Origin: Actinomycetes bacterium | Lineage (GTDB): Bacteria; Actinomycetota; Thermoleophilia; Gaiellales; Gaiellaceae | Assembly (NCBI GenBank): GCA_025358355.1 | Contig: JANYJX010000095.1 | Coordinates: forward strand, 1 to 64,000 | DNA length: 64,000 bases | Reading direction: 5' to 3' | In this document: one piece after another, positions 42,857-45,501 of the stretch | Numbering within the stretch: the stretch's first letter is position 1 | Layout: each line of letters opens with the position of its first letter | Made by a program: the position numbers and the translations under genes | Notes under the pieces: generated by a model | Told to the model about the DNA's origin: nothing | Seen by the model: the letters and a program-made list of their open reading frames with translations, nothing else | Databases searched by the model: none

Positions 42857-42873
42857 AGAACGACTCCAGAAAA

Positions 42874-42910
42874 GGAAACGTCCCCGGCTGCGGCTTCCGG
42901 GGACGTTTCC
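42874..42910 (+). terminator. Strong intrinsic terminator hairpin
   Basis: GGAAACGTCCCCGG-N9-CCGGGGACGTTTCC perfect 14-bp stem. Confidence 0.85.
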
Positions 42911-43071
42911 AACGAGGCGGTGTGCTGACTTCCGAGAGAGTGCAGTCCGTGACTCTGCGGCCCAACCACGTACTCCGGTCTCTCTGTGATGCCTGCCCCG
43001 CCTCCCGCATCGGTCTGGCGTTGACCAGTGCGAGGTTCGTGTCGCCGACACTAAAGGCCATGTCTTAAAAA

Positions 43072-43091
43072 GTCAAGTAGCTCAGTCAAGT
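43072..43091. promoter_or_regulatory. Direct repeats upstream of XRE-TPR gene
   Basis: GTCAAGT-agctca-GTCAAGT in an AT-rich stretch. Confidence 0.45.
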
Positions 43092-43138
43092 GATTTGCGA
43101 TATCTTGCACTTCACTATGGGGCGGCGGGGGCATCGCG

Positions 43139-44476
43139 ATGACTGACCTGATCCCTGGGGTCGGCGCGGATTCGGCCAATAAGTCGATGGGAATCCGCCT
43201 TCGCACGCTCCGCGTCACCGCTGGATTGACCCAAACCGAGCTTGCGGGCGACCGTTGCTCGAAGGAGTACGTCAGCCAGATCGAGCGTGGCAAGACCCGC
43301 CCGACGGCCGAGACGATCGAGTGGCTTGCGGCCCGTCTCGACATCGCACCTTCGTTCCTCGAGACAGGCGTCTCGACGGATGTGCGCAACCGGCTCGAGG
43401 CGACGCTTGCGCGCGCGGAGGCGCTCAGCGAGGCGCATCGGTTCGACGAAGCTGCCGCGGCCTTTGCGGACACGAGGGATGAGGTCGGCTCCTCGGGCAG
43501 CATCGAGCTCGAGGTTCGGGCGCTCTCCGGTGAGGCGTGGGCGCGGATGGAGCTCGGTGAGGTCCGCAAGGCGATCTCGCTGCTCCAGCGCGCGCATCTT
43601 GCCGTTGAGGCGCCGGAGTTCAACGATGTCGATCGGGCGGACATCCTCTTCCGGCTCGGCGTCAGCCGCTACAAGCTCGCGAGCATTGCGACCGCGGTTG
43701 GGCTCCTCGACCAAGCGTTGACGTTGGCCGAGCGCTCGGAGCTTCCCTGCGATCTGCTTCGCGCGGACATTCTCGGCTGGCGCTCGCGTTGTCGCCGCCA
43801 CCAGCGTGACTTCGAGGCTGCGCGCGAGGATGTCGAGCGCGCGCTTGAGCTTGCGCAGGCGATGGACGATCGCCGCGCGATCGCGAACGCGTACTACCAG
43901 GCCTCCCTCGTGACCGAGCGGATGGGCCATTCGATCGCGTCGCGCAACTACGCGCAGCGGGCGAAGGCGCTCTACGAGGAGCTGAACGATCGGCGTGCAG
44001 TCGGCCGGTTGACGCAGAACCTCGGCGGGCTTCACCTTCTTCTTGGCAAGCCGACCGAGGCGATCGAGCAGCTCAAGGCTGCGTTCACGATCGCCGTCGA
44101 ATCGGACTCCAAGCCGGATGCTGCACAGGCACTCGGCAACCTCGGGACGGTCCATCTTCATCTCGAGGAATTCGACGCGGCCGACGACTATGCGCGGCGC
44201 GCGCTCGAGCTGTTCGAAGACCGCGAGGACTATCTTCAAGAAATCGGCCAGGCGCATGTTGTGCTCGGGCGTTCACTGATGGAGCGCGAGCGGCTGGACG
44301 AGGCGGGGGAGTGCTTCAGGGCTGCCGACTCAAGTTTTGAGCGACTTGGGTCGATCAGCTACAGAGCGGGGGCGTGGGTCGCGTTGGGTGACCTTGCGAG
44401 TCGTCGTGGGGACGACCGTGAGGCGGCGCGGCTGTATCGCAATGCGGCGGCGACGCTGCAAGACATCCGCTTCTAG
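43139..44476 (+). CDS. XRE HTH-TPR transcriptional regulator
   Basis: RLRTLRVTAGLTQTELAGDRCSKEYVSQIERGKTRPTAETIEWLA, followed by ~8 TPR-like repeats. Confidence 0.92.
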   Translation: MTDLIPGVGADSANKSMGIRLRTLRVTAGLTQTELAGDRCSKEYVSQIERGKTRPTAETIEWLAARLDIAPSFLETGVSTDVRNRLEATLARAEALSEAHRFDEAAAAFADTRDEVGSSGSIELEVRALSGEAWARMELGEVRKAISLLQRAHLAVEAPEFNDVDRADILFRLGVSRYKLASIATAVGLLDQALTLAERSELPCDLLRADILGWRSRCRRHQRDFEAAREDVERALELAQAMDDRRAIANAYYQASLVTERMGHSIASRNYAQRAKALYEELNDRRAVGRLTQNLGGLHLLLGKPTEAIEQLKAAFTIAVESDSKPDAAQALGNLGTVHLHLEEFDAADDYARRALELFEDREDYLQEIGQAHVVLGRSLMERERLDEAGECFRAADSSFERLGSISYRAGAWVALGDLASRRGDDREAARLYRNAAATLQDIRF

Positions 44477-44492
44477 GAAGGAGGCTCCCCAT

Positions 44493-44540
44493 ATGAAGGC
44501 TCGCCTGATCCTTCATCGCAGTTGGACCGACGGCCACTAG
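44493..44540 (+). CDS. Candidate 15-aa micropeptide MKARLILHRSWTDGH
   Basis: ATG 8 nt after AAGGAGG (44478-44484), 16 nt downstream of the XRE-TPR stop; too short for the ORF track. Confidence 0.55.
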   Translation: MKARLILHRSWTDGH

Positions 44541-44574: not shown

Positions 44575-45501
44575 ATGTTGCGCCCTGTTGTGGCCCTTCG
44601 CGCCCTGAGCTGCACGCTGCTTGCCGGGCTTCTGCTTGCTGGCTGTGGCAGCTCAGGGCGTTCTTCTTCTGACGCCGGATCCACTCTGAAGGCTCTGGCT
44701 GGGAAGGCGCCGATCGCGGTCGTGCCGGGCACGGAAGACTTCCAGCCGGGACGCAACCGCTTCTCGTTCTTGATCATCGATCCCCAGTCGCGGCCGATCT
44801 CGACCCCGACCGCCAACGTGTGGGTGGCGACGAGCCTCACCGCGGTCCCGTTCGAGCAGACGACCGCGCGGAGTGAGCCCGTTGGTGTGGCCAGCGGCGC
44901 GAAGGCTCCCGTCGGCTCGATCTACGTGACACACGTCAACCTGCCAAAGCCCGGGAAGTACTGGCTACTCGCCGTCCCGAACGGCGCCTCGGGGTCGGTG
45001 CGCGCGCTCGCCAATCTGGTCGTTCCGGCGAAGCGCACTGCCGCGCCGTGGGTCGGCGATCGGGCTGTTCCGTCTGATACGCCGACGCTTGCGAGCGTCG
45101 GCGGCAAGCTCGCCGCGGTCAGCACGGCGACGCATCCTGACCCGCGGCTCTACCAGATCTCCGTCGCCCAGGCGATGGCGGCCCACGTGCCGTTTGTCGT
45201 TAGCTTCGCGACGCCGAAGTTCTGCACGAGTCGGACGTGCGGGCCGGTCGTCGATGTCGTCGATGCGGTCGCCAAGAAGCTCGCGGCGACTCCGGTGCGC
45301 TTCATCCACGTTGAGATCTACAACGGCAACGATCCCGCCGAGGGCTTCAATCGTTGGGTGGACAAGGAATGGCGCCTACCGACCGAGCCGTTCACGTTCG
45401 TTGTCGATCGGCGGGGCATCATCCGTGCGAAGCTCGAAGGTGCGTTCTCGGTCGCGGAGCTCGAAAGCACGGTCCGCGCTCAGCTACTGCGCCACGCATA
45501 A
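44575..45501 (+). CDS. Lipoprotein with C-terminal thioredoxin-like region
   Basis: Lipobox LLLAGC; VPFVVSFATPKFCTSRTCGPVVDVVD...FTFVVDRRGIIRAKLEG. Confidence 0.75.
   Translation: MLRPVVALRALSCTLLAGLLLAGCGSSGRSSSDAGSTLKALAGKAPIAVVPGTEDFQPGRNRFSFLIIDPQSRPISTPTANVWVATSLTAVPFEQTTARSEPVGVASGAKAPVGSIYVTHVNLPKPGKYWLLAVPNGASGSVRALANLVVPAKRTAAPWVGDRAVPSDTPTLASVGGKLAAVSTATHPDPRLYQISVAQAMAAHVPFVVSFATPKFCTSRTCGPVVDVVDAVAKKLAATPVRFIHVEIYNGNDPAEGFNRWVDKEWRLPTEPFTFVVDRRGIIRAKLEGAFSVAELESTVRAQLLRHA

Follow-up and report, generated by a model that had tools for sequence, protein, structure and literature searches.

Does the short ORF behind an XRE-TPR regulator gene in a Gaiellales genome encode a peptide signal that the regulator senses? 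The pair lies in a stretch of 64,000 nucleotides (hereafter, the window) from a Gaiellales MAG (Actinomycetota, Thermoleophilia) of 2.9 Mb in 116 contigs. Peptide quorum sensing via cytoplasmic receptors has been described as a Bacillota trait; for Actinomycetota, small molecules are described as the usual signals, and in a review of 2016 Thermoleophilia had no report of quorum sensing (PMC10075063, PMC4748050). We found no later report for this class in the open-access literature. The RRNPPA literature that we searched treats the family as one of Bacillota or Firmicutes, and a large RRNPP scan had only Firmicutes and viruses in its scope. A sequence-only reading of the window had nevertheless proposed that regulator and short ORF form an RNPP-like regulator/peptide pair. 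Here we compare the locus with its relatives. As judged by sequence, the conserved cassette has three parts: the XRE-TPR regulator, a downstream gene for an export-type propeptide, and a divergent structured small RNA (Table 1).

Table 1. Features of the putative peptide-sensing locus, in window coordinates
Feature	Position	Strand	Basis
Divergent structured small RNA (approximate ends)	42866..43041	-	Covariance model match 42865-43007, 90.9 bits; covariation
Terminator-like hairpin of the RNA, GCCGCAG in loop, TTTT after	42870..42910	-	Sequence
Central hairpin of the RNA, conserved GCCGCAG in loop	42949..42969	-	Alignment
-10 TAGTGT (window, L003) of the small-RNA promoter	43048..43053	-	Most relatives have TATAGT or a similar -10
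-35 TTGACT of the divergent small-RNA promoter	43071..43076	-	Overlaps left repeat
Direct repeat GTCAAGT-N6-GTCAAGT, presumed operator of the receptor (no binding data)	43072..43091		Conservation
ACTTCACT, possible third, inverted half-site (inference)	43109..43116		ACTTGACT or ACTTCACT similarly placed in several loci
XRE-TPR regulator, probable cytoplasmic peptide receptor	43139..44476	+	ORF, 445 aa; HTH_31/HTH_3 plus TPR_12 (Pfam)
Shine-Dalgarno (SD) AAGGAGG of the peptide gene	44478..44484	+	Sequence; GGAGG-type site at same position in nearly all homologs
Peptide gene MKARLILHRSWTDGH, ATG...TAG, presumed signal SWTDGH	44493..44540	+	Sequence; relatives L003, L004

A short ORF is conserved behind homologous receptor genes

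A lone 15-codon ORF is little proof of a gene, and we accepted this one as real because it is conserved behind orthologous receptors. The ORF to which the sequence-only reading had drawn attention is present at 44493-44540 and recurs behind almost all of them. Its spacing had been described only partly correctly: AAGGAGG does lie 8 nt before the ATG, but it begins 1 nt past the receptor stop codon, and it is the ATG that follows the stop by 16 nt. Behind about 69 distinct receptor homologs, we found an SD and a short ORF, mostly within 16-45 nt; no such peptide was found behind the family receptor L095 or the class-level (f7) homologs L132-L134. A strict automatic test, which demanded an SD, a start within 48 nt, a length of 22-75 aa, and basic and hydrophobic character, was passed by 60 of 70 receptors. 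It flagged 5 of 898 other long ORFs used as a control, and all five turned out to be the same peptides, reached via out-of-frame ORFs overlapping the 3' ends of receptor genes. Thus, the independent controls gave 0 of 893, and the scan for short ORFs behind homologous XRE-TPR genes, which the earlier reading had put forward as a check, came out in favor of the peptide gene. A chance ORF is ruled out by the conservation together with these controls.

Coding constraint on the short ORF, the other check put forward, is present as well. The pN/pS ratio was 0.38 in 19 independent pairs picked by peptide similarity, a criterion that biases the choice. In 31 pairs picked by receptor identity, the ratio was 0.55; in the latter set, the 1046 differences were distributed over codon positions 1, 2, and 3 as 333, 252, and 461. 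The conserved ORF and the constraint support the proposed pairing of regulator and peptide, for which there are no binding data.

A short ORF with a strong SD also precedes the lipoprotein gene at 44575, as would be the case for a leader peptide or attenuator whose translation controls the downstream gene. However, the constraint falls on the amino acids, beyond the reading frame, and the tandem C-terminal units of some relatives (see below) would have no role in attenuation. We regard this explanation as very improbable.

The propeptides of relatives carry an export-type segment and a C-terminal motif

The products of the relatives are 28-68 aa long. A basic N terminus is followed by a hydrophobic core (best 12-residue mean hydropathy of 1.8-3.5), which is absent from the window copy, and the C terminus carries a motif of the kind SWxDGH or GMxDGG. 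A typical product has the form MKxRLLLLLxNLALLAAWLGK...SWPDGH. The pair [DE]G falls within the last nine residues of 63 of the 69 peptides, and the residues before it are most often G or S, then M/W/F, then any residue.

Several propeptides carry their C-terminal unit in tandem. SAFDGG/SMFDGG units are repeated three to five times in L017-L020 (the propeptide ends being SMFDGGSAFDGGSAFDGGSMFDGGSMFDGH in L017 and SAFDGHSAFDGHSAFDGNSAFDG in L018), and a GM(H/Q)DGHG unit occurs four times in L028. Multi-pheromone propeptides are known in Bacillota, where tandem RRNPPA propeptides likewise hold several signal units each, but these belong to another phylum and differ in sequence (PMC11343458).

Paralogous receptors that occur in the same genomes have peptide classes of their own. 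Receptors L139-L143 are accompanied by peptides of the class MLRK...WTDGFSDGR, and TPR-only receptors without HTH (L147, L149, and L153-L156) by peptides with YGFSSGG-type ends. The peptides of L145 and L158, from one genus, end with GHGGGHMNW, and those of the order-level family f3 (L127-L131) with RGFHEW. Among the TPR-only paralogs L147, L149, L152-L156, L164, and L165, most have a peptide ORF with an end like FSSGG, FSSGN, or FSTGN, and this layout is Rap-like; L153 has no HTH in Pfam and about 30 residues in place of the N terminus.

Signal peptides and transmembrane (TM) helices are similar at such length, and nearly all copies combine a basic N terminus with one hydrophobic stretch near it, so the small ORF might instead encode a single-pass membrane microprotein that acts on the regulator as partner or antagonist and releases no signal. 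Both the tandem units and the separate peptide classes of paralogous receptors favor a released signal over such a microprotein. The MLRK..SAAAK and LAQAK subgroups have AxA-like processing sites, which point the same way, as do the C-terminal motif that the peptides have in common and the window copy, a signal-only remnant that keeps SWTDGH without the helix. Thus, a released signal is the reading that we prefer, and a membrane microprotein appears quite unlikely.

The receptor is predicted to combine an HTH with a TPR superhelix

Orthologs of the receptor are present in 92 of 103 genomes of the family, and its relatives come from Gaiella, Gaiellaceae, Thermoleophilia, and other Actinomycetota MAGs. 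The receptor profile extends further to the order families f1 and f3, with remote homologs at the class (f7) and phylum levels. The TPR_12 match in Pfam has an E-value of 3.4e-26, and no Rgg-family match was found in NCBIfam or Pfam. In the AlphaFold2 model (mean pLDDT 91.9), the HTH is followed by a TPR superhelix. Foldseek placed generic TPR proteins first by E-value, the best values belonging to eukaryotic LGN TPR domains. The first 50 PDB matches listed also included the PlcR-PapR-DNA complex (3u3w) and the Rap-pheromone complexes 8rsv and 4gyo; the last of these, Rap-CSF (TM-scores 0.62/0.75), had the best TM-score by query length among those 50 listed matches, 0.62. In a profile search against PDB sequences, the HTH matched DdrO and ComR and the remainder generic TPRs; by sequence, the TPR part is nearer to generic TPR proteins than to RRNPP members. 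An AlphaFold2 prediction of a read-through fusion (receptor, linker, and propeptide of L003) left the C-terminal peptide unplaced, with a tail pLDDT of ~25, and gave no support either way. Proteins of the NsdA family (NCBIfam NF053720) are also TPR regulatory proteins, but the receptor scores 36.5 bits in this family, below its cut-off of 75 bits.

Four points of the five-criterion RRNPP signature (PMC10075063) are met: the receptor length of 445 aa is inside the range of 250-500 aa, TPRs are present, the propeptide falls within 10-100 aa (15 aa in the window), and the two genes are adjacent (16 nt apart in the window). The fifth point, secretion of the propeptide by Sec or PptAB, is inferred to be likely for the relatives from the basic N terminus and the hydrophobic core alone. 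The locus thus looks RRNPP-like in its predicted working, whereas common descent with any named RRNPP subfamily is not established.

The window copy is probably a leaderless deletion form

The full form of the peptide, 31-34 aa long, is found in all close relatives. L003 and L004, whose receptors are 72% and 68% identical to that of the window, encode peptides of 34 aa (MRHARLLLLLANLALAAAWLGKFYPKSHTWSDGH) and 33 aa (MHRGRMLLLLANLALLAAWLGKFHPSKTWSDGH), respectively, both ending with TWSDGH. In the window ORF, the N-terminal MKARLIL and the C-terminal SWTDGH are kept, and the segment between them, the export helix, is gone; the SD, start, frame, stop, and C-terminal motif are intact. The simplest account is that the window ORF is probably an in-frame deletion of a gene for a propeptide of ~33 aa. 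An assembly error is also possible, since no second genome of the species was available for comparison. If the deletion is real, the peptide would be leaderless and might be a private intracellular ligand, a leaderless signal using another export route, or the start of decay. The absence of a signal sequence had been noted before and holds for the window peptide, but it is peculiar to this genome, as the relatives carry an export-type hydrophobic segment.

Leaderless peptides of the RopB-LCP class in Bacillota are still secreted and re-imported (PMC10518010). The window copy resembles this class in having a very short peptide without an export signal beside a TPR-HTH regulator, but its leaderless form seems to be a deletion product of a leadered one. 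Only the window copy is leaderless, and its receptor is not matched by the Rgg family, so the locus does not qualify as a member of this class.

Alternatively, the window copy could be a decaying or misassembled propeptide gene from which nothing functional is made, with the system working in the relatives. The presence of the full form in every close relative and the nature of the genome, a MAG in 116 contigs, would agree with this. However, the SD, start, frame, stop, and C-terminal motif have survived the deletion, the receptor, the repeat, and the RNA are intact, and leaderless signal peptides are known in Bacillota (PMC10518010). We give decay or misassembly less than an even chance, although it remains a possibility to be taken seriously.

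A conserved direct repeat overlaps the promoter of a divergent structured RNA

The repeats that the sequence-only reading had located at 43072-43091 are there, with half-sites at 43072-43078 and 43085-43091. In 55 of 68 loci, TCAAGT occurs twice with a period of exactly 13 nt, and both half-sites are fully invariant there (consensus GTCAAGTAgCTcgGTCAAGTGATTT). Nine loci have a single perfect TCAAGT, several of them with GTGAAGT as the second half; many loci have other GTGAAGT-like half-sites closer to the start codon, and in L007 and its relatives, an extra ACTTGACT/ACTTCACT half-site follows the second repeat at a distance of ~20 nt. In its perfect form, the repeat is found a single time per genome, at the receptor locus, and the reversed-pattern control gave zero matches. 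When one mismatch was allowed in a search for a wider regulon, the receptor locus was the single match in the window's own genome and in most of the relatives searched, and no distal target was seen. A match elsewhere in the genome of G042 looks like chance.

The earlier reading had missed a divergent small RNA, whose promoter overlaps these repeats. The distance between its -35 and -10 elements is 17 nt in nearly all loci. Compensatory changes were found in 17 of 21 pairs of the RNA; none of 500 shuffles reached any of the five measures used, and the covariation signal was destroyed when pairing partners were shifted. In the central hairpin, G-U pairs outnumber A-C cells and thus fit the minus strand, and the second hairpin is followed by T-runs in the manner of a terminator. 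The covariance model detected the RNA in 86 of the 103 family genomes, at a single place in each, which either adjoins the receptor or lies where a contig ends. Of the 92 genomes with a receptor, 84 have the RNA, as do 2 of the 11 without one; the RNA was not found outside the receptor's family of the order. A known RNA was rejected for lack of any Rfam match (E up to 1 for the window, up to 0.1 for six relatives), as was a small protein encoded by the divergent RNA, since an SD-led ORF occurs in just 6 of 64 and none is widely shared.

Natural losses were seen in two genomes. In G042, from the same genus (L214:4050-4400), neither receptor nor peptide is left; the RNA is still there, as is the flanking lipoprotein gene, and the repeat has decayed to GGCAAGTCGCTCGGTCGGGT. 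G022 (L215:1900-2100) lacks receptor and peptide too; it has retained the RNA with its promoter and has lost the second half-site. Both losses, though only two cases, fit a repeat that may be kept for the receptor.

It could still be argued that the receptor-peptide pair and the small RNA are mere neighbors without a functional relation, given that G022 retains the RNA and its promoter without a receptor and that the peptide comes without an RNA match both in the paralogs of the receptor and in the order-level family f3. This is unlikely in our view: the RNA has a single copy per genome, which adjoins the receptor, and the repeat overlaps the -35 of the RNA and decays upon receptor loss.

On the other side of the cassette, the gene at 44575-45501 encodes a lipoprotein (LLAGCGSSG) with a thioredoxin-like CTSRTCGP motif and without a Pfam or NCBIfam match; an apparent ortholog is still in place in G042 after receptor loss. 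A SelD-like ORF comes next. SelD was rejected as a fixed neighbor, as the motif search (12 of 36 loci) was too loose for use.

A proposed circuit and its relation to known systems

Our reading, with good confidence, is that this Gaiellales locus forms a gene circuit for peptide sensing in the manner of the RRNPP systems (Rap/Rgg/NprR/PlcR/PrgX/AimR) of Bacillota; binding, export, the direction of regulation, and the RNA targets are inferred or without data. In the proposed mechanism, the propeptide would be exported and then trimmed to its last 5-8 residues or so, a peptide of the SWxDGH type. An oligopeptide permease would re-import the mature peptide, which the TPR groove of the receptor would bind; the window's genome has three oligopeptide-binding proteins (SBP_bac_5). 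Binding would alter the grip of the receptor on the direct repeat and thereby switch the small RNA. In the simplest version, the small RNA would be repressed with the receptor on the repeat, because the left repeat forms the -35 of the RNA and would be blocked when occupied. Both divergent promoters are inferred to be controlled through the repeat, and the receptor-peptide operon itself is probably also switched in this way.

The arrangement is similar to PlcR-PapR and NprR-NprX of the Bacillus cereus group, in which an XRE-type HTH with a TPR array is followed directly by a same-strand propeptide gene with a short C-terminal signal. In contrast to these systems, the present locus belongs to Actinomycetota and has a longer TPR array, a direct repeat as presumed operator, a divergent small RNA, and no close sequence relation. 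The phage arbitrium system AimR-AimP-AimX also places the receptor beside the propeptide and has a short nearby transcription unit, aimX, as its main target (PMC6458997). However, the Gaiellales cassette is chromosomal and conserved across a bacterial family, its RNA is structured and conserved, and its repeat is direct with a 13-nt period; the repeats bound by AimR are inverted and separated by 25 bp (PMC6458997). Rgg-SHP and ComR-ComS share the short hydrophobic propeptide with a C-terminal signal, and the receptor HTH profile also matches ComR, but the TPR sequence differs and the phylum is another.

Together, Gaiellales bacteria probably communicate by peptides, a mode so far described only in Bacillota, although this is predicted from genomes alone. 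On balance, we lean toward the joint claim that they own an RRNPP-type communication with SWxDGH/GMxDGG pheromones, tandem variants, TPR-only Rap-like paralogs, and an undescribed structured small RNA as the primary target, and that in one species the secreted signal has become leaderless and self-sensed. If true, peptide communication through cytoplasmic receptors would extend to another phylum and to an order mostly known from soil metagenomes. It would also reveal a pheromone circuit with a small RNA as its end point, and predicted pheromones would be at hand for synthesis. The deletion in the window would then be a natural case of how a public signal could turn private.
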